The notes under the pieces: generated by a model
Seen by the model: the letters and a program-made list of their open reading frames with translations, nothing else
What the model was told of the DNA's origin: nothing
The model's database searches: none
Virus record (IMG/VR): IMGVR_UViG_3300028392_000265
Coordinates: 1 to 25,945 of that record
DNA from: a virus
DNA length: 25,945 nt
Reading direction: 5' to 3' (one strand)
Made by a program: the position numbers and the translations under genes
Part shown: piece after piece, positions 5,650-22,197 of the stretch
How the letters are laid out: each line of letters begins with the position of its first letter
Numbering within the stretch: the first letter of the stretch is position 1

Positions 5650-6111
5650 TTATTTTAAAAATAACAATTTATATTTTGTAGAATCTATAAGACTCTTTAC
5701 TTCATCTAATTGATTAACAATCTCACTATGAGGCATAATAGATTGTAAAGCTGCAGTTTTATCTTTTAAAGTTCTAAGATAGTCAATTGTTTCTTCCACT
5801 GAATTTAATTCTGTAGGAGCTGTATTAGGCATTTCTAAAAGCTTCTCTTCAGCACCTTGAAATTGTTCTACAATAGAATCAGCATGATCACCAATTTCAT
5901 CATAAAATTCATTAAGAGCTTTATGAGCTGCAAATGAACCTAAGCCTGTAACTTTTAAATGAATCTTATGAATACTAGTTACAGCATTTAATAAGTCTTG
6001 TGCTAAAGCTGCTGTTTGAATACACACTCCACAAGTTTCAGCTTGAGGCATCATTGCTGCCATACTTGGTCCACTCATTGAAAATATTCCTGGTTTTTGT
6101 AAAGCTCTCAT
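5650..6111 (-). CDS. Dps/ferritin-like helical protein (153 aa; DUF5856-type)
   Basis: Residues 36-92 form two helices with a Dps-like pattern: HKIHLKVTGLGSFAAHKALN, then EFYDEIGDHADSIVEQFQG. Dps-family ferroxidase ligands follow a fixed spacing, in E. coli Dps H51, H63, D67, D78 and E82. Here H51, H63, D78 and E82 are at the same spacing, while position 67 is Asn (followed by E68). After a Pro/Thr turn, residues 104-153 are again helical, giving a plausible four-helix bundle. The N-terminal 30 residues are Met/Ser-rich with a CGVC motif. I recall a phage family, DUF5856, with this look. Iron binding, DNA binding or a purely structural role are all possible. The gene lies between ring-protein and structural genes, suggesting a virion or assembly role. 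Confidence 0.6.
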   Translation of the reverse strand: MRALQKPGIFSMSGPSMAAMMPQAETCGVCIQTAALAQDLLNAVTSIHKIHLKVTGLGSFAAHKALNEFYDEIGDHADSIVEQFQGAEEKLLEMPNTAPTELNSVEETIDYLRTLKDKTAALQSIMPHSEIVNQLDEVKSLIDSTKYKLLFLK

Positions 6112-6116
6112 ATTAT

Positions 6117-6818
6117 TTAACTATTTGATTGTACATTTTGTTGTTGTCTTTGATATTGAGTTACTGATTCAATATCTCCGGCTAATATCATTGCTGCATT
6201 ATCAGCTATCACTTCAGCTACATCATCATTAAACTCACATTCTTGATTTGCTGTAAAAGGAAATCCTGTTTTTATATCTATACAATCAGTAAACTGTACT
6301 TCTGTAGGTTTTCTATAATATACAAGATAACATTTAGAAATTTCAAATTCACCATTGGTATATACTCTCAAAGAGTTATCTATTCTTGTTGCTACAGTTT
6401 CGGCCCATTCAAAGTTTGGTTGCCTATTCTTATCATTTAGAATAATAGATATGTTAGCTTCTTCCACTTCATATACAGTTAGTCTACGTTCTGGGCAACA
6501 TGTTTGTTGAGCAAATACATCTGTACGTACATAGTGAAGATAGTCAGTTGGTAATGCATCTGCTTTATAATAGATTTGTTTATCTATCATAGTAAGTAAT
6601 TCTACCTTCATTAATTTCTGTAGATCATCCACCAAACCACTACTTTGTTCAACACCCTCTTTACGAATATTAATACCATACATTTGTCTTCTAGTCCATT
6701 CTAATTGAGCTTTATTAAAAGCCTCAGCTATTTGCCAACACTCAAGATTATCATAATCCAGGGAGGCTAGCTTATTAAGCCTTTGTTTTATTTTAATCTG
6801 TAATAGGTTATTGTTCAT
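6117..6818 (-). CDS. Head-tail ring/adaptor-like structural protein (233 aa)
   Basis: The protein is mostly helical at the N-terminus (residues 1-70, including AFNKAQLEWTRRQMYGINIR). A beta-rich middle follows with the segment LPTDYLHYVRTDVFAQQTCC, and the C-terminal helical part reads CEFNDDVAEVIADNAAMILA, then GDIESVTQYQRQQQ. That C-terminal signature is familiar from a conserved crAss-like structural protein lying between capsid and tail genes, which I take to be a portal-proximal ring or tail-stopper protein. It has no signal peptide or membrane segment. It starts one base after the stop of the 82-residue basic protein and is followed 5 bases later by the Dps-like gene. The family match is by memory; the ring role is an inference. 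Confidence 0.65.
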   Translation of the reverse strand: MNNNLLQIKIKQRLNKLASLDYDNLECWQIAEAFNKAQLEWTRRQMYGINIRKEGVEQSSGLVDDLQKLMKVELLTMIDKQIYYKADALPTDYLHYVRTDVFAQQTCCPERRLTVYEVEEANISIILNDKNRQPNFEWAETVATRIDNSLRVYTNGEFEISKCYLVYYRKPTEVQFTDCIDIKTGFPFTANQECEFNDDVAEVIADNAAMILAGDIESVTQYQRQQQNVQSNS

Positions 6819-7067
6819 TTAGCATTTCCATTTTCTCAGTGACTTATTAATTCTACTATCAGGATCTCTAGCTGTCTTAGCAGATGTAAGTTTAGCTTTC
6901 ATTCCTTTCATTCTAGCACAGAATGATTTCTTTCTAGGACCACCTTCAGGCTGAGGTGCTTTAAGATTACCACCAGTAGCTTTATTGTAAGAAGCTCTTC
7001 CTTTAGCATTTAAACCACCACTTGGTGATTTACCTTCTTTTCTGGTCCAAGCAGGAGTCTTTGCCAT
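6819..7067 (-). CDS. Small basic conserved phage protein, DUF6321-like (82 aa)
   Basis: The sequence starts AKTPAWTRKEGKSPSGGLNA, passes through SYNKATGGNLKAPQPEGG and SFCARMKGMKAKLTSAKTA, and ends DPDSRINKSLRKWKC. This is a near-complete match to a short family I know as DUF6321, widespread in aquatic phages. It is strongly basic, lacks a hydrophobic core large enough for a normal globular fold, and has two conserved Cys (residues 50 and 82). It follows another basic protein by 2 bases and abuts the ring-protein gene. A DNA-associated or virion-cargo role is a guess from charge and context. Its function has not been established as far as I know. Confidence 0.75.
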   Translation of the reverse strand: MAKTPAWTRKEGKSPSGGLNAKGRASYNKATGGNLKAPQPEGGPRKKSFCARMKGMKAKLTSAKTARDPDSRINKSLRKWKC

Positions 7068-7069
7068 AA

Positions 7070-7423
7070 TTACTTCTTTTTAGACTTAACCATTCCACCT
7101 TTTTTCATAGTAGCTCCTGCTATTTTATCAGCATATGTTGCTTTATCATAAGGTTTAGCAAGTGCTTTAAAAGGAGTAGATCCACCTTTAGCCATCTTAG
7201 GTTTTTTAGACTTTCCTACAGATCCACCTTTTTTATATCCAGGTGCAGGATTTGTCAAAGTAGGTTTTCCAGGATTAGGGTTAGGTCCTATTGGTCCATA
7301 ATAATTAGGATCAACAGAACTTCTACTAACAGGAGGAGCATCATTTTTAACTGGTCTAGAATCAGCTGTTCCACCTGGACCATATTTTTTCATAGACTTA
7401 GAAGAACCAATTTTGTTTTTCAT
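7070..7423 (-). CDS. Lys/Gly/Pro-rich low-complexity protein (117 aa)
   Basis: The protein is disordered-looking. The first half is Pro/Asn/Gly-rich (NYYGPIGPNPNPGKPTLTNP) and the second half contains Lys-Gly repeats such as KKGGSVGKSKKPKMAKGGS and a C-terminal MKKGGMVKSKKK. KGG-M/S-V-K units recur three times. Such KKGGMVK-type proteins are common small members of structural clusters in Bacteroidetes phages. It lies among four other Lys-rich small genes, with 1-2 base spacing on both sides. It may be a nucleic-acid-neutralising virion component, but this is only an inference from composition. Confidence 0.65.
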   Translation of the reverse strand: MKNKIGSSKSMKKYGPGGTADSRPVKNDAPPVSRSSVDPNYYGPIGPNPNPGKPTLTNPAPGYKKGGSVGKSKKPKMAKGGSTPFKALAKPYDKATYADKIAGATMKKGGMVKSKKK

Positions 7424-7572: not shown

Positions 7573-8547
7573 CTATTTAGGTAATCCTGCTTTAAATGTT
7601 GTTGTTAAATCTACCCAAGTTGTAGTGCCCTTTGGTAGTTTTTGAAAACTTACTACATCTATATATGCTTCATATCCATCATCAACATTTATAAATGTAC
7701 CACTCATAAAAAATGCATCTCTTGTACTTCCATTAATTGCATTTGTTCCAGCTGCTGATCTTATACCTGTAGCACCTAACAAAAATGTTTGTCCAGCAGC
7801 TCTTAATATTTCTGTAGCTATTACCATTTGAGCAGCTGTAGCTGAACCAGTTAATGGTGCCAAAGCTGCTCTATTAGTTGTTGATGCTAGTATATTAGTT
7901 AAAAAGAACTGTTGGTAATCATCAACAAAATTTGATTGTACAGGAAGTCCAGCATTATTAATAGCCCAATTTATAGCTGCTTGTACAGCACCACAAGAAG
8001 TGTTTTGACTAGTTTGTCCTTTTCTAAGTATAGATCCCACTGTACCATTGCTAGATATACCAATGTGTGGCATATTCATTACAAACAAATTACCTGTATC
8101 TGTAACGTGACTTGCATAAGCACCCAAGCCAGTAATACCTGTATGTGGGTAACCAGCTAAACCACCAGACATAAATGGTCCTAAATACTCATTTAATGAT
8201 AAAGGATGTTGTCCTAAATTATCTTCATCTAGAAACATAGGTGCATTAATATCATCAGAACAAACTGATAAAGACATCAATGTATTACCTGCAGCATATC
8301 CTAAATTCTTTAAAAATAATTTATTATACTCTCCAAATGCTTGTGCTGACACAGCATTAGGGTAGGTAACCCTAACTGTTTTAGTATATGAAGATGGATT
8401 TCTAAAATCTGTATTTTCATTAATCACTTCAATCCATTCTCCTGGTTTAGGATTTTTAAATGCAAAAGTTAATGAACCAGCAGCTATATCACCAGCTGGT
8501 TTACGAAGAACAAAAGGTTTTTTAGGCTTAATGTTATAACTTCTCAT
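7573..8547 (-). CDS. LCIB/LCIC-type beta-carbonic anhydrase domain protein (324 aa)
   Basis: The middle carries the ordered motifs of the limiting-CO2-inducible protein B/C family of beta-carbonic anhydrases: SLSVCSDDIN (C96, D98/D99), GGLAGYPHTGITGLGAYASH (residues 128-147), MPHIGISSNGTVGSILRKGQ (residues 159-178, with H161 and R175) and TSCGAVQAA (C185). A Cys-His-Cys zinc site with a nearby Asp/Arg pair is the known catalytic layout of beta-type enzymes; C96, H161 and C185 fit it. The reaction would be CO2 hydration to bicarbonate. The length suits one catalytic domain plus a C-terminal beta extension (GYEAYIDVVSFQKLPKGTTT). No signal peptide is seen. It is embedded between a lipoprotein gene (2 bases upstream) and small virion-like genes. 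Activity cannot be judged; it may have been recruited as a virion protein. It ends in TAG. Confidence 0.7.
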   Translation of the reverse strand: MRSYNIKPKKPFVLRKPAGDIAAGSLTFAFKNPKPGEWIEVINENTDFRNPSSYTKTVRVTYPNAVSAQAFGEYNKLFLKNLGYAAGNTLMSLSVCSDDINAPMFLDEDNLGQHPLSLNEYLGPFMSGGLAGYPHTGITGLGAYASHVTDTGNLFVMNMPHIGISSNGTVGSILRKGQTSQNTSCGAVQAAINWAINNAGLPVQSNFVDDYQQFFLTNILASTTNRAALAPLTGSATAAQMVIATEILRAAGQTFLLGATGIRSAAGTNAINGSTRDAFFMSGTFINVDDGYEAYIDVVSFQKLPKGTTTWVDLTTTFKAGLPK

Positions 8548-8850: not shown

Positions 8851-9114
8851 TTAAGCAATAGTTTTTTCAGCTTTGATACGTCCAATAACACCTATTACTA
8901 ATCCTATAAGTGTAATCACTTGACCTAAGATTAAACCTACATTACCTTGAGCAGCTTTAATAGCTTCAATAGCAGCTTGAGTTTGATCAACTGTAGCATC
9001 TACAGGAAGATTAACACCAGGAACTTGTAATACATTTGTAATAACAACTCCTAAAGTAGCTACTATAATTCCCCAAATTGTTTTTGATAAATACCATTTT
9101 TTTGTCTGTGTCAT
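8851..9114 (-). CDS. Holin-like membrane protein (87 aa)
   Basis: Two hydrophobic segments are clear: residues 12-31 (TIWGIIVATLGVVITNVLQV) and 58-79 (NVGLILGQVITLIGLVIGVI). They are separated by a polar loop with Asp, Gln and Glu. The N-terminus (MTQTKKWYLSK) and the C-terminus (GRIKAEKTIA) are positively charged. Size, two-helix layout and charged ends match class II phage holins, which make inner-membrane lesions at lysis. A tiny lipoprotein two genes downstream could act in the outer membrane. No endolysin is visible nearby, so the lysis assignment is not proven; a virion membrane-channel component is an alternative. The start follows an AAATTTAAAATA leader. Confidence 0.65.
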   Translation of the reverse strand: MTQTKKWYLSKTIWGIIVATLGVVITNVLQVPGVNLPVDATVDQTQAAIEAIKAAQGNVGLILGQVITLIGLVIGVIGRIKAEKTIA

Positions 9115-9137: not shown

Positions 9138-10154
9138 TTATTGATTCCAATGTTTCTCTACTTTTTTAGTAAGATCTATAAGAAGCTCTTCATTTAATGG
9201 ATTTCTTAAATATTCAAATACATCTGTTAAGTTACGACCCATCATTGTTGTAGTAGACATATGATAGATAAATCCATCAGCTTTAGTAGCAATATACTTG
9301 TAGTAGTTTGATTCTTTTATAATAGCTTTAATCTTTAATGTTTCCATATCAAAATTAGCTGCTTCAAGAAATTTTTCTGCTGTTTTCTTTTTGTTCTTAT
9401 CTACAGATTCTCCGTTAATATATTTATCCATGTTGTCATAGATAATATCATTAGGTGTAGACTTTTTATACTGAGCACCATTTATATCTAACACTTTAGC
9501 TACATACAATAATTTATTCTGATTCTTATCAAATAACTTCTGAAGTTCTGATAAAGCTTTATTTCTAAGTTTTTTAATTTCTGTATTAACTGATGCACTT
9601 TCTTCAAGTTTATCAAGATAAAACTTAGGAGGTGTTGGCATAGTACGAGCTTCTTCTAAAGACTTAGCTACCATTGAAAACCCACCAGCTTCTATTGCCA
9701 ATAATCTAATCAAATCATAAGGATCTGTAACTGGCTCTAAATGCACTGGTTCATTACCACATCTAATTTTAATCTTATCCCAAAACTCACCATTGTTTTG
9801 TTTAAGTAAAACAATCTTATTCCAAAAATCTTTATCTTCAGGATCTACAACATTAGCTGCAAGTTCTTTTTCTAACTGAGCAACTACAATACGTATTTGT
9901 TTAATCTTAGCTTCTTGTTCTTCTAAAGGAAGAGCTTTAACTTCTGGAGCAAATTCATTTAGTCCAGTGACATAACGTTTGATTCCATTGATTTCTAAAC
10001 ATGCAACTGTTTCTTCATGAAATGCTCCATCAAAAAGACTAAGTCCATACTTTTGAAGTCCCATATTATCTACTTGTGAATCAAAATAAGGACGTATTGC
10101 AATACTAGATTTTTTGTTCTGTGGGTATTTCTCCACAATTGTTACATTACTCAT
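9138..10154 (-). CDS. Hypothetical helical protein, probably virion-associated (338 aa)
   Basis: The protein is mostly alpha-helical and highly charged, with no signal peptide, membrane segment or recognised catalytic motif. A conserved-looking stretch is DPYDLIRLLAIEAGGFSMVA (residues 155-174), followed by a Lys-rich helical region (residues 189-260) and a C-terminal helical segment ending LTKKVEKHWNQ. The layout resembles conserved cargo or internal virion proteins in aquatic Bacteroidetes phages, but I cannot name a family. Two AAACCAAA leader motifs lie immediately before the ATG. The gene stands between a beta-rich virion protein and the holin-like gene. Its role is inferred from neighbours only. 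Confidence 0.65.
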   Translation of the reverse strand: MSNVTIVEKYPQNKKSSIAIRPYFDSQVDNMGLQKYGLSLFDGAFHEETVACLEINGIKRYVTGLNEFAPEVKALPLEEQEAKIKQIRIVVAQLEKELAANVVDPEDKDFWNKIVLLKQNNGEFWDKIKIRCGNEPVHLEPVTDPYDLIRLLAIEAGGFSMVAKSLEEARTMPTPPKFYLDKLEESASVNTEIKKLRNKALSELQKLFDKNQNKLLYVAKVLDINGAQYKKSTPNDIIYDNMDKYINGESVDKNKKKTAEKFLEAANFDMETLKIKAIIKESNYYKYIATKADGFIYHMSTTTMMGRNLTDVFEYLRNPLNEELLIDLTKKVEKHWNQ

Positions 10155-11194: not shown

Positions 11195-12814
11195 TTAGAA
11201 TGATCCACCAGTTACAGGGTTTCTCATAACAATCTTCAATACTTTCGTAGGGTCTTTCACCCAAATAGCAGGCATTGTCTGTGTCATGAATACACGATAT
11301 CCGTTAAAGTTTCCAGAAGACTGGAATCCTTGTGTACGTCCCATGTAATCCATAGTACCATTTTGATAGAACCATTTCAATTGATTATCCCAAGACAACT
11401 TCAACAAATAGATATTATCATTTGTGTTATCTGTGATATCAAAGATAATGAAATTATATGAACTTAATGGGAAACCATCAATAATTGGATTCTCAATATC
11501 ATTTGTATGAACATTATCAAAAGCTGGGTTCAACACAAACTTAACGTTAGCTAAGAATGGAATTACATAACTAGTGTAAGCAAATCCAAAGTTCAAGTCC
11601 ATTCCAGTACCAGTTACAGCACCAAGCTCATGAGCATTAAGAACTAAACCAGAGTTAACTGCTTCTTTCTTAATTGCTTCGTTTACAAGCTTCATACCAC
11701 CCATACCTGTTTGAACGATCAAAGAACGTTGAGGATCTGGACCTTTAAATTCAACTTTACCGTTGAAGAAGTTAAAGATTTCAGATTTAAACAAATCTAA
11801 GTTAAATGAACCTCTATTATAGATTCTCTTATAAGAGTTATCTAATTGCTTCCAAAGACCAACTGATAAACGAATATCATCTGGACCATCTTGTCTAACT
11901 TTACCACCTTGTCCCCACATTAAGTAAGTCTCAATGTCATTAGCAATCTTAGTCAAATGAGCTGCTTCTAAAGTAGTTAAGAAAGAACGAGTTAATTGAC
12001 CATTTGCATAAGCCTTCTTAACGTAATCCTTACCCATCTTCTCAGCCATTGTTTCTAAGTTAGTAACTGAAGGATCTACATTCTTATCAAAGTTTCTCCA
12101 CATTTCAATTACTGGAACTGTACCATCAGCTTTCATACCACCTTTCATCATCAAGTCAGCACGACTAGAAATAGAATAATGTACGTGAGCTTCTGCTCCT
12201 CCTACGTAGTTGTAGAATTCACGGAAACCAGCTGAAACGTTTCCAAGATCAGAGAATCTTTCTCCATACTCTCCACGTGCAGAACCTTTACGGAACACCT
12301 TAGTACCAACTTTTAAATACTTGTTATCCAAATACTTAGTGTTGTCATTGTTTACTAACTGAACAGTGTAAATAAAACCATCTCCTGCTGGGATGATATC
12401 ATCCACAGTGATGTACATTTCCACACCATTGTACTTATCATAAGTGATAATATCACCATGACCAAAGTAACGTTTGTTAATTTTGATTTTGAAGGTTTGA
12501 CCATCAATACCTTTAGTAGCATTAGATGATTCAATATCTTCAATAATGTAAGGAAGATCCTGAGCTACAGGAATCTGCCACTTGTACTCACCACGGTTAT
12601 TATCTACTGAAATAACGTTCTTACCACCAAAAGATGACATTTGATACAAAGGCATTTCTACTTTTTGTGCCATTGCCCAAAGATCCACTGGACCTAAATC
12701 TGTAGGCTCAGCTGATTTAAGGAGGTTAGAAAGGTGGTACGAATCTACGTGTGAACTAGTCGTGTAGTTATTGTCACGTAGGAATATACCATTGTTTAAA
12801 ACTGGGGTTGCCAT
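11195..12814 (-). CDS. Major capsid protein (539 aa)
   Basis: The gene follows terminase, portal and a scaffold-like gene in the standard head-module order, and its product has the length and look of crAss-like HK97-fold capsid proteins. The N-terminal part contains EPTDLGPVDLWAMAQKVEMP and then RGEYKWQIPVAQDLPYIIED; residues 120-190 contain a likely surface or insertion domain. The C-terminal half has LIVQTGMGGMKLVNEAIKKE and SSYNFIIFDITDNTNDNIYL. There is no membrane segment. High expression is suggested by the CCCTTAAATTT leader shared with another structural gene, and by the strong hairpin just after the stop. The HK97 fold is known for the family and inferred here. Confidence 0.75.
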   Translation of the reverse strand: MATPVLNNGIFLRDNNYTTSSHVDSYHLSNLLKSAEPTDLGPVDLWAMAQKVEMPLYQMSSFGGKNVISVDNNRGEYKWQIPVAQDLPYIIEDIESSNATKGIDGQTFKIKINKRYFGHGDIITYDKYNGVEMYITVDDIIPAGDGFIYTVQLVNNDNTKYLDNKYLKVGTKVFRKGSARGEYGERFSDLGNVSAGFREFYNYVGGAEAHVHYSISSRADLMMKGGMKADGTVPVIEMWRNFDKNVDPSVTNLETMAEKMGKDYVKKAYANGQLTRSFLTTLEAAHLTKIANDIETYLMWGQGGKVRQDGPDDIRLSVGLWKQLDNSYKRIYNRGSFNLDLFKSEIFNFFNGKVEFKGPDPQRSLIVQTGMGGMKLVNEAIKKEAVNSGLVLNAHELGAVTGTGMDLNFGFAYTSYVIPFLANVKFVLNPAFDNVHTNDIENPIIDGFPLSSYNFIIFDITDNTNDNIYLLKLSWDNQLKWFYQNGTMDYMGRTQGFQSSGNFNGYRVFMTQTMPAIWVKDPTKVLKIVMRNPVTGGSF

Positions 12815-14238: not shown

Positions 14239-16989
14239 TTATTTCTTCTTTTCAGATTTATCTTTTACATCATACTTGTTTTTATTAGTACGTGCAATTT
14301 CAAGTTGTTTCTCAGCTATTTCCTTTTGAGTTTGTAACTTTTCTCTATCAATACTATGCTTATCACTCGTTTGCATGTTCTTATTTACTTCTTGCTCACG
14401 TTTGAAATTCATAGTTTCTTGATAGTTCTGTTCTTTTTTAATACCAGCCATGGCATCCATATAATCATTTTGTTGATTTTGATTAATATCAACCATAGAT
14501 CCCATACCAGCTGATCTAATTTCAGCTTCAGTAATTCTAGCTTGTCTATCTTTAGCAGACTCCTCAGCTTTAAACTGTTGAGCCATTTGAAGTTGTTTCT
14601 CTTGAGCTTGTAACTGTTCTTGTTGCATTTGTTGTTGATGCTGTTGCTCTTGTTGTTTCTGAGCATTAACTTTTTCTTCAGCAGATTTAAGAACACCAGT
14701 TAATTCACCTATAGATTCAGATTTAATGATATTACCAAGATCATAAACAGATGCTCCAGTGGTATTATTATTAATAGCCAATTGTTTAAGTTGTTCCATT
14801 ACAGAACGAGAATTAGTCTTAGTGGTACAAAATATATTAAGATCCCTCATTAAAAGATCTGTACCATTCATTTGGAAATTAACCTTTTCATCAGTTCCTG
14901 TAATGTATTGTAAACGTACACTAGGTTTCTTAGAATGATAATACTGTGCTAAGTCAGTTCTCATCCCGTGTACACGAGGCATCAAGTTATCACTATGTTG
15001 TATGAAGTATTGTTCTGTCTGTGCATAGGAAGCATTTTGAGCCTGTTCTACAGCCGTTGCTGTTTGTTGCTGAGCAATCTGCATACCCATACGTTGATCA
15101 TTCAATCCTATAACAGCAAATGCTTCTTGTTTAAAATACTTAGCAAGATTAATCCTAGAAAGCAAACGGTTAGTTTGTTCTAGATTTAACACTTGATAAT
15201 GTTGAAAGTTAAGAGCATTCTCAGTGTTAGTGATAGACGTATCCAATGGTAACATTTGAAAGTTCTTCATTGCCACATATGCCTTAGACAAATTGTTCTT
15301 TCCCCAGTCTTCTCCCAATGAGTGACGTGGTAGAGCATTCTGATCTAACATAATAACTGTACCAAGCTCATCTACTAATATATCAGCTATCTGGTTGTTT
15401 ACAATGTTATATCCAATCTGAAATGGCTTCATTAAATCTACAAGACTCACTGATCTAGTATTTCTATCTCCAAATACAGCTCCTTCTACAGGAAGCTTAC
15501 AACCATACAATGTAGAATCCCCTTTAAATTGAAAAGGCACTCTACCTGGTTTACCTCCATTAAGCCCAAGATATATAGGATTGATACCACCTGGATTATT
15601 CATACCCCAGAAAGCCGGTCTATTAGGACCAATCTTTACACCACCCCACACTTCATTAATCCATATCCAATCTATATGTTCTCCAAATACTACGTTATCT
15701 TTAGTTTTTTGTTTATACACTGAAGTGTCGTATTCTGGTTTATCAGTCACTTTATATTCTTCAGATATAATATCTTGTATAATTTCTCCTTCTGATGTTA
15801 TTTTAGTAAGGTGACCCACCTTTCTTTGACTCTTCCAATAGATTGTAGAGACACGTAACATGTATGACTTACCAAAGTCTTGGAGATCTTCAGAGTCTGA
15901 TAATATCCATTGTACAATATCTCCAAATTGAGATCCGGCATCATACAAACTAGTAAATTGTCTATAAGCCAAAGAAGGCATTTGAGTATTCCACTCGTGA
16001 GATCTAGTTGGGTCATAATAAGTTCCGTCATTTTGATATCCCTGTATGGCATACCCAGCTGAACGGGCAGGATATATAGCTTCCAAAGCTTCTAATTGAT
16101 CTTCATTCATCATCCAACCATACTTGTCTACAACGTCTGATATAGACATCATATCCATTTTACCCACCCAGTTACCCTGGGATATGTAACGTACATCTGG
16201 AGATTTGTGATAAAATGTAAGTAGGGGATTCCATAATTCTAACTCATAATCATCCTCCATCATATTAAAATGCCAGAACTCTCTATCTGTAATAAGCATA
16301 TCACGAAAAGCTCTTTCTTCTAATTCTTGTAATTTAAATCTTTCTTCATCCACATTCATCTGATGAGTGGCCCATTCTTCAATCATTGATCTATAATCTT
16401 TTTTGAAGAACTGTTCTATTTCTGGAAGAGATTTAAGTTTTTCAGGAGATAATTCTTGTTGAGCTTCTTCACTATCAGGCTCCAACCCCATTTGCATTAT
16501 CTTCATCATTTGTTTTTGTTGAGCTTCTGCTAACAAAACATCCTCAATCATTTGTCTTTTAACTTCTAACATTTCATTATATGAAATATCATCTATTGCT
16601 CTAAACATTATTCTTGAACTCCTTTTAGAGAATTCATTAGTGAGAACATTAATTACATTGGGAATGATAGGATAGAACTTAAGCTCAAATGCTGATACAT
16701 CTTCTTTAGTAAGAGTGTCTATAAGATCTGCCATCTCATTATCCTCCTCCACTATATAATCTTGTTTGTCTATAATACCTTTAGCCAACTTATAATTTTT
16801 CATCAAACGTCTAGCATTACGTCTAAGTTGTTTCATACCTTGAAACTCTAACCAGTCAAGGTTCCAACCTCTCCACTGATCATCCTTTTCTTTTTCAGAA
16901 ACAAACTGAAAAGGTTGAACCAGAGTACCCATTTTATTGTACTCAACTTTAGCTCCCTTCTTTACCTGTAAGGCATTATATATTTGCAT
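14239..16989 (-). CDS. Portal protein (916 aa)
   Basis: Size, position directly after the large terminase, and sequence style match crAss-like portal proteins, which form the dodecameric DNA entry ring at one capsid vertex. Recognisable parts are RRLMKNYKLAKGIIDKQDYI (residues 38-57), PIIPNVINVLTNEFSKRSSR, a long middle with many Trp/Tyr (IDWIWINEVWGGVKIGPNRP), and LYGCKLPVEGAVFGDRNTRS. The C-terminal 150 residues form a long Gln-rich coiled coil (about residues 770-805) and a Lys-rich tail ending KDKSEKKK, probably the barrel region. It is longer than most portals. It starts 2 bases after the stop of a 39-codon frame; the scaffold-like gene follows after 114 bases. Confidence 0.8.
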   Translation of the reverse strand: MQIYNALQVKKGAKVEYNKMGTLVQPFQFVSEKEKDDQWRGWNLDWLEFQGMKQLRRNARRLMKNYKLAKGIIDKQDYIVEEDNEMADLIDTLTKEDVSAFELKFYPIIPNVINVLTNEFSKRSSRIMFRAIDDISYNEMLEVKRQMIEDVLLAEAQQKQMMKIMQMGLEPDSEEAQQELSPEKLKSLPEIEQFFKKDYRSMIEEWATHQMNVDEERFKLQELEERAFRDMLITDREFWHFNMMEDDYELELWNPLLTFYHKSPDVRYISQGNWVGKMDMMSISDVVDKYGWMMNEDQLEALEAIYPARSAGYAIQGYQNDGTYYDPTRSHEWNTQMPSLAYRQFTSLYDAGSQFGDIVQWILSDSEDLQDFGKSYMLRVSTIYWKSQRKVGHLTKITSEGEIIQDIISEEYKVTDKPEYDTSVYKQKTKDNVVFGEHIDWIWINEVWGGVKIGPNRPAFWGMNNPGGINPIYLGLNGGKPGRVPFQFKGDSTLYGCKLPVEGAVFGDRNTRSVSLVDLMKPFQIGYNIVNNQIADILVDELGTVIMLDQNALPRHSLGEDWGKNNLSKAYVAMKNFQMLPLDTSITNTENALNFQHYQVLNLEQTNRLLSRINLAKYFKQEAFAVIGLNDQRMGMQIAQQQTATAVEQAQNASYAQTEQYFIQHSDNLMPRVHGMRTDLAQYYHSKKPSVRLQYITGTDEKVNFQMNGTDLLMRDLNIFCTTKTNSRSVMEQLKQLAINNNTTGASVYDLGNIIKSESIGELTGVLKSAEEKVNAQKQQEQQHQQQMQQEQLQAQEKQLQMAQQFKAEESAKDRQARITEAEIRSAGMGSMVDINQNQQNDYMDAMAGIKKEQNYQETMNFKREQEVNKNMQTSDKHSIDREKLQTQKEIAEKQLEIARTNKNKYDVKDKSEKKK

Positions 16990-21330: not shown

Positions 21331-21560
21331 AGTTTTTCTTTTGTTTGCCTTAATAAATCTCTATTGGCACTCTTACCCATTTTTCTAAGAAGAGAATGTC
21401 CTCTAAGTTCATGATCATGTATCCATGTAATAGTTCCTTTAGCTTGATGTTGTTGTGTTAAATAAACTTTTCTAGCTTCATTTTCTGGAACTAAATCTCC
21501 ATTTTCAAATTGGTCTAACACCTCTTCTAAAAGAGGAATTTTATTTTCCTGAGTATTCAT
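21327..21560 (-). CDS. Hypothetical small helical protein (77 aa)
   Basis: This charged, mostly helical protein reads LLEEVLDQFENGDLVPENEA, then RKVYLTQQHQAKGTITWIHD, with a basic C-terminal helix RKMGKSANRDLLRQTKEKL. There is no Cys, signal peptide or membrane segment. It overlaps the PhoH-like gene upstream by 20 bases and the 100-residue gene downstream by 4 bases, so it is embedded in one translational series. No family is recognised. Its basic C-terminus allows DNA or RNA contact, but that is speculative. Confidence 0.55.
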   Translation of the reverse strand: MNTQENKIPLLEEVLDQFENGDLVPENEARKVYLTQQHQAKGTITWIHDHELRGHSLLRKMGKSANRDLLRQTKEKL

Positions 21561-22197
21561 ATTCTAATATTTTACCTACAAGATCAGATCTGTGGTTATG
21601 TTTAAGTTTAATATATTTAATTTCTGAAATCTTCTTAGAAAGTTCTATAACATATCTAAGTCCATTGTCTCCAGCATTCCTAATGTCTGTCTGTTCAAGA
21701 TCACCATTAATTATAATCCTACCATTCTTCCCAAGCCTTGTAAGAATTGCAAGCATTTCTGCCTTAGTCAAATTTTGGGCTTCTTCCACCACAAGTACAT
21801 CATCAACAGTTTTGCCACGTATAAATTGTACAGGTAGTGCATTAACTTTTTCATCTTTAATAAGTTCTTCTATTTTTAATTTATTATAACACTTAATTAA
21901 GTTTTCTTGAAATGCTTCTAGATAGGGATCAAACTTTTCATTAAGAGAACCAGGTAGAAAACCTAATGAATGACCCACTTCTACAGCAGCTCTAGTGACT
22001 AATATCTTATCACACTCTTTTTTAAATAAAAAGTCAAGAGCACATTGTGCACTTACAAGACTCTTACCACAACCAGCCCTACCAGTGATGATCACAACTT
22101 GATTCTCAAGGACAAGTCTTTTAGCTTCTTTCTGTTCATCATTAAGAGTGATATTATACTTAATCTCATTCTTTAAAACCTTTTTTTTCTGTTCCAT
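21541..22197 (-). CDS. PhoH-like P-loop ATPase (218 aa)
   Basis: Motifs are clear and in the order known for PhoH-family ATPases, which are related to RNA helicases and frequent in phages: Walker A GRAGCGKS (residues 39-46), TRAAVEVGHSLGFLPGSLNE (68-87), Walker B VLVVEEAQN (134-142), GDLEQTD (165-171) and a C-terminal HNHRSDLVGK with a candidate arginine finger. The Asp usually found in Walker B (DEAQN) is Glu here. The length matches a single-domain PhoH. The role in phages is not settled; RNA processing and phosphate-starvation links have been proposed for the family. It overlaps the upstream 107-residue gene by 32 bases. Confidence 0.8.
   Translation of the reverse strand: MEQKKKVLKNEIKYNITLNDEQKEAKRLVLENQVVIITGRAGCGKSLVSAQCALDFLFKKECDKILVTRAAVEVGHSLGFLPGSLNEKFDPYLEAFQENLIKCYNKLKIEELIKDEKVNALPVQFIRGKTVDDVLVVEEAQNLTKAEMLAILTRLGKNGRIIINGDLEQTDIRNAGDNGLRYVIELSKKISEIKYIKLKHNHRSDLVGKILEYEYSGK

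Follow-up and report, generated by a model that had tools for sequence, protein, structure and literature searches.

Why would a phage carry a gene for a carbonic anhydrase among the genes for its particle? The question is raised by a gene of the LCIB type in the window, i.e. the whole stretch of 25,945 nucleotides of viral DNA analyzed here. A first-pass annotation of the sequence had described this gene as an LCIB/LCIC-like beta-carbonic anhydrase gene in a virion module.

Identity and genomic setting of the LCIB gene

The open reading frame was present at the annotated position, though on the minus strand (the plus strand across 7573-8547 is full of stops). The motifs quoted in the first-pass annotation were all found in this minus-strand frame, and its numbering of C96, D98, D99, H161, R175 and C185 was correct. 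The assignment to the LCIB/LCIC family, for which profile and structure comparisons had been proposed as checks, was borne out by both. Pfam PF18599 (LCIB_C_CA) matched residues 69-247 with high significance (122.8 bits, cut-off 25; E = 1.7e-35), and phmmer matched the solved proteins 6kfs (E = 7e-21) and PtLCIB4 (5b5y; E = 1.2e-17). An AlphaFold (AF2) model of the 324-aa protein, built from an alignment of 81 rows, reached a pLDDT of 87.7 and a pTM of 0.83. The predicted fold superposed on PtLCIB4 over 239 residues at 2.4 Å; for PtLCIB4 as for 6kfs the Z score was 26.4, over 239-242 residues, compared with 21-26 for LCIB/LCIC-family structures overall and at most 12.4 for ordinary beta-carbonic anhydrases. 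Judged by family and modelled fold, the product of 7573-8547 is a genuine LCIB-family beta-carbonic anhydrase.

Table 1. Positions of the genes, modules and residues of the window that are discussed in the text.
Feature	Position	Strand	Remarks
Tail ring-like protein	6117-6818	-	phrog_29507 'virion structural protein', E = 2e-8
DUF6321 small Lys/Arg-rich protein	6819-7067	-	in cluster recurring beside crAss-like LCIB genes
Small Lys-rich ORF	7070-7423	-	between LCIB and DUF6321 genes
LCIB-type beta-carbonic anhydrase gene	7573-8547	-	324 aa, ATG start; assigned by Pfam, phmmer, fold
LCIB_C_CA domain, residues 54-320	7588-8388	-	Pfam and AlphaFold model
C185, predicted zinc ligand	7993-7995	-	aligned to PtLCIB4 C125
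R175, predicted dyad Arg	8023-8025	-	aligned to PtLCIB4 R115
H161, predicted zinc ligand	8065-8067	-	aligned to PtLCIB4 H101
H147, invariant His	8107-8109	-	aligned to PtLCIB4 H88
D98, predicted catalytic-dyad Asp	8254-8256	-	aligned to PtLCIB4 D48
C96, predicted zinc ligand	8260-8262	-	aligned to PtLCIB4 C46
N-terminal anchor module, residues 1-53	8389-8547	-	small beta structure, then hinge
87-aa ORF	8851-9114		between gp33-like and LCIB genes
gp33-like protein (crAss001 gp33 homologue)	9138-10154	-	upstream of LCIB gene
crAss-type major capsid protein	11195-12814	-	PF23898 Crass_capsid, E = 1e-32
Portal, P22-type	14239-16989	-	phrog_6547, E = 2.5e-93

By the sequence of its crAss-type capsid, portal and ring-like genes, the window is from a crAss-like phage, and homologues of crAss001 gp20 and gp32 were detected in it. 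Lbo-JY46, Cellulophaga phage phi4:1 and PhicrAss001 have homologues of the head-module genes with their order unchanged; those of the portal, the major capsid protein (MCP) and the ring protein are annotated in phi4:1 as virion proteins verified by MS/MS. With MCP, portal and ring-like genes around it, the LCIB gene is indeed set in a virion module. In the window and its crAss-like kin it lies between the gp33-like and ring genes, and the homologues of these two flanking genes abut in the Leptolyngbya phage Lbo-JY46. In T4-like and related contigs, the LCIB gene follows the capsid gene (contig L022) or the portal gene (L018), and in L072 it precedes a head-tail adaptor gene. In several large T4-like contigs a long distance separates it from the MCP gene.

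Three further genes of the window were observed. Positions 5650-6111 (minus strand) encode a DUF5856 protein (E = 6.8e-17) that resembles Dps by eye and gave a weak ferritin-like match; its gene is found repeatedly in the structural module of crAss-like contigs that carry LCIB. DUF6321 is an 80-aa Lys/Arg-rich module with which, according to PHROGs, many large phage proteins end; in the window it is free-standing, and it is recurrent beside LCIB. A putative PhoH-like ATPase at 21541-22197 (minus strand) was noted for its resemblance to the PhoH protein of L072 (4387-5148).

Conservation of the predicted active site

Residue numbers of PtLCIB4 were counted from the alignment and anchored on the mutants S47R and H88A. 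The three zinc ligands proposed by the first-pass annotation, C96, H161 and C185, hold as candidates, being invariant, like D98, H147 and R175, in all 128 sequences compared (74 from phages, 51 from bacteria and the 3 solved ones), despite identities to the window protein of as little as 36-40% among phage members. Of the residues proposed for the catalytic dyad, D98 and R175 stand, whereas D99 varies and is replaced by E in 28 of the 51 bacterial members. We take R175 to be the arginine that completes the dyad, from the alignment and general knowledge. PtLCIB4 R52, six residues after the position of C96, was considered as the dyad arginine and rejected because R175 is conserved, while R52 is conserved in neither bacterial nor phage members. 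Among close relatives of the LCIB protein dN/dS was 0.20-0.36, and the protein is therefore under purifying selection.

The phage proteins thus have the whole domain fold, the zinc ligands and D98, H147 and R175 in common with the LCIB/LCIC family (PtLCIB4 5b5y, 6kfs, Chlamydomonas 5k5w, 5b5x). Unlike the solved members, they have phage-specific N-terminal modules, a virion gene setting, an insertion with an invariant G112 that is missing from 51 of 51 cellular members, and A or G at position 102, which is R in the three solved sequences and variable among bacterial members too. Position 135 is H in 53 of the 74 phage proteins, compared with F in all cellular members. Some close relatives differ in a patchy manner: between L002 and L007 the identity is 97-100% for residues 1-180 and 50-63% thereafter, and the window protein is 97% identical to the protein of L004 at residues 271-300 and 50% at 211-240. 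This mosaic among the window, L002, L004 and L007 reflects either recombination or assembly chimeras.

Distribution and N-terminal modules of phage LCIB proteins

A single-query search of IMG/VR gave 32 LCIB loci. The alignment search gave 117 stretches, 80 of which were kept, yielding 74 distinct proteins with the window included; IMG/VR thus holds at least 74 distinct phage LCIB proteins, in crAss-like and T4-like contigs. Where the first-pass annotation saw a single gene, there is in fact a phage-wide family with modular anchors. Among 42 carrier contigs tested for capsid type, 15 had a crAss capsid, 12 a T4-like capsid (phrog_138) and none both; the others had neither type, and many of them are fragments. 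In a maximum-likelihood tree with the 51 bacterial and 3 solved sequences, the phage LCIB domains formed one clade (100/100). No cultured carrier was found among 50,697 GenBank phage records, in which tblastn with full-length and domain queries gave no matches or chance matches only. The LCIB profile gave only chance scores on the cultured relatives Lbo-JY46, phi4:1 and crAss001, and a structure search of BFVD gave no LCIB-like viral entry with E<=0.001.

On the cellular side, PF18599 was present in 31 of 296 sampled genomes from the phylum of Flavobacterium caeni. The chromosomal LCIB proteins of Bacteroidota (L110-L125) share with the phage proteins the CSDD, FLGPF, GG-GYP and C-terminal IN-D motifs at about 30% identity, but are mostly 244-272 aa long, lack an N-terminal module and fall outside the phage clade. 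In the CSDD-type bacterial clade a gene for a bestrophin-family channel directly adjoins LCIB (Pfam E about 1e-44, three genomes); such a neighbor was counted at 13 of 53 loci under a strict limit of 400 nt, which missed three more adjacent cases. In L111-L125, e.g. L116 (6970-8723), the channel gene comes directly before the LCIB gene. PMC11142338 and PMC6708349 describe bestrophins as Cl-/HCO3- transporters in the algal CO2-concentrating mechanism, in which LCIB also works. The gene pair is a possible bacterial bicarbonate module.

In most phage proteins 48-135 residues precede the LCIB domain, and the bacterial relatives are without them. In the AlphaFold model of the window protein, residues 10-40 fold into a small beta element of their own (pLDDT about 90), joined to the LCIB domain by a low-confidence hinge at residues 41-50 or, more narrowly, 44-46. 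The N-terminal modules fall into nine groups with no detectable similarity among them, corresponding to nine or more changes along the LCIB tree. Group 0 comprises 38 proteins, including that of the window, and is always crAss-type where a capsid was assigned; the other groups accompany T4-like capsids or come from fragments of unassigned capsid type. The modules of groups 0, 2 and 3 recur at the start of other, non-LCIB proteins encoded by the same contigs. Group 0 is shared with Thr-rich and other proteins of 80-414 aa (profile E 1e-10 to 1e-15), and the anchor of the window protein has homologues at the N-termini of fibre-like proteins from related crAss-like contigs. The mates of group 2 are 67-776 aa long (E down to 1.8e-29), the longest having YadA-head-like repeats and similarity to a Flavobacterium phage 'tail spike'. 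Those of group 3 are proteins with Pro/Thr linkers, one of which matches a 'baseplate wedge tail fiber protein connector'. The N-terminal 55 residues were shared within the locus for 17 of 74 LCIB genes and 22 of 653 control genes, several of the latter being anchor mates themselves; the associated probability (Fisher p = 2e-8) is a guide only, because the rows are phylogenetically non-independent. The anchor of the window had no partner within the 26-kb fragment, and its group has partners elsewhere. No copy of the anchor was detected in Lbo-JY46, phi4:1 or crAss001. PHROGs and Pfam searches with isolated anchors gave no clear family, apart from a weak match of one T4-like anchor group to phrog_22781.

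Two further architectures were observed. Tandem LCIB genes occur in T4-like or unassigned contigs L012 (9617-11683), L013 (9614-11738) and L019 (9779-11817), and also in L024 (9953-12015), L027 (9767-11817) and L075 (7659-9714); in these pairs the first copy has an N-terminal module and the second has none. In L061 and L063 (7638-9968) the LCIB domain is internal to 776-aa proteins, preceded by an extension of 123 aa and followed by one of 400 aa.

Possible roles of the phage LCIB protein

The best reading of these data, to which we give about even weight, is that the gene product is attached to the virion as a fibre-like stalk bearing a carbonic anhydrase, which is probably a dimer and probably active. 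Its parts differ in strength. Attachment to the virion is likely, judging from gene order and shared modules: the N-terminal module (about 50 aa, folded and followed by the hinge) would tie the protein to the particle, and a head fibre or some other surface fibre is its most likely form there. The suggestion of packaging into particles made in the first-pass annotation is strengthened by the N-terminal modules shared with fibre-like neighbors. Catalytic activity of the domain as a carbonic anhydrase is rather probable, the C-terminal 270 aa being predicted to form an LCIB-type beta-carbonic anhydrase with a full zinc and dyad site. Since LCIB is fused to anchors that fibre-like proteins share, these viruses probably carry a CO2-converting domain on their particles. 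The displayed unit is probably dimeric, because the active sites of beta-carbonic anhydrases form between two subunits. The phages probably acquired the LCIB domain once, from a family also found in Bacteroidota chromosomes, and among crAss-like and T4-like phages it would since have been joined to nine or more different N-terminal modules. Interconversion of CO2 and bicarbonate would most likely persist at the particle surface; a benefit, which is speculative, might be a local shift in pH or bicarbonate next to the host envelope while the phage adsorbs or its genome enters. That two unrelated capsid lineages, crAss-like and T4-like, both display an active carbonic anhydrase, as one mobile domain swapped between anchors, is a more tentative proposition.

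A similar plan is known from PhicrAss001, in which the head fibres use N-terminal residues 1-38 (gp21) or 1-58 (gp29) to bind the hexon pockets of the capsid and leave their C-terminal domain exposed; uncharacterized proteins of other crassviruses are expected by the authors to act as head fibres (PMC10172136). The trimeric gp21 and the dimeric gp29 share with the phage LCIB proteins a short N-terminal segment followed by a C-terminal domain. Their exposed domain, however, is Ig-like or phi29 gp8.5-like and not an enzyme, and the LCIB anchor had no detectable homology to gp21 or gp29 (hhalign probability about 1%, for short and diverged sequences).

The enzymes known from virions are for the most part ones that cut polymers or lyse walls. 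If the reading of a particle-borne carbonic anhydrase is right, CO2/bicarbonate chemistry at the cell surface would take part in phage attachment or genome entry, and a new kind of virion enzyme would stand beside depolymerases and lysins; a small-molecule enzyme for gas and bicarbonate, carried as a swappable part of fibres, would mean that phages alter the chemistry around the infected cell. The literature consulted gave no link between LCIB-type proteins and phages, and an LCIB carbonic anhydrase domain on exchangeable phage anchors appears not to have been described before. The large, diverse and natural set of phage proteins, with its fully conserved site, would also be an experimental handle on a family of disputed activity.

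The strongest alternative is a binding domain without catalysis, in which the LCIB fold would be reused as a receptor- or glycan-binding head group or as a decoration, with the zinc site holding fold and dimer together. The anchors and the gene position fit it too, and the part of the protein after residue 185 is mosaic, as expected of an exposed, diversifying surface. Moreover, Chlamydomonas LCIB and LCIC, recombinant or native, alone or complexed, show no carbonic anhydrase activity (PMC8825250), and because they retain the fold and the zinc site, conservation is no proof of activity. However, D98, H147 and R175, which are not ligands, are as invariant as the ligands in 74 of 74 phage proteins, where a scaffold should have lost some, and the bestrophin-adjacent bacterial relatives suggest a CO2/bicarbonate role for the family. 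We regard a purely binding function as rather unlikely. Some enzymes of the beta-carbonic anhydrase fold hydrolyse CS2 or COS, and related zinc lyase or hydrolase chemistry on a substrate other than CO2 might be read from the A or G at position 102 and from H135; given the variation of position 102 in bacteria and the unchanged zinc site, D98, H147 and R175, such chemistry is very improbable.

An ordinary auxiliary metabolic gene would instead supply a late soluble carbonic anhydrase to the host cytoplasm, acting on pH, on bicarbonate for carboxylases or on CO2 handling. This agrees with the intact predicted site, with the lack of an N-terminal module in the second tandem copies of large contigs, and with a position in the structural block, which would give late expression only. 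Giant viruses provide a precedent, in that their carbonic anhydrase genes have been considered as auxiliary metabolic genes (PMC13037468); those of the Karenia-associated vOTU6 and of Pandoravirus celtis in BFVD are likewise virus-encoded, but belong to eukaryotic viruses. A cytoplasmic enzyme is made less likely by the anchors, which are phage-specific, lineage-dependent, common to fibre-like proteins and absent from bacterial relatives, and psbA was found in 0 of 24 records searched. We consider this alternative improbable, and the analysis gave no support to an intracellular tuning of host pH or of carbon metabolism, as first suggested.

Among cultured phages, Leptolyngbya phage Lbo-JY46 (L164, PP438436.1) is the nearest relative by MCP, portal and terminase, and for this reason a cyanobacterial host was considered. 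The absence of psbA from the 24 records and the missing Shine-Dalgarno sites of the genes agree with Bacteroidota as hosts, but Lbo-JY46 has few such sites as well. Lbo-JY46 itself combines a crAss-related head module with a host that is said to be a cyanobacterium.
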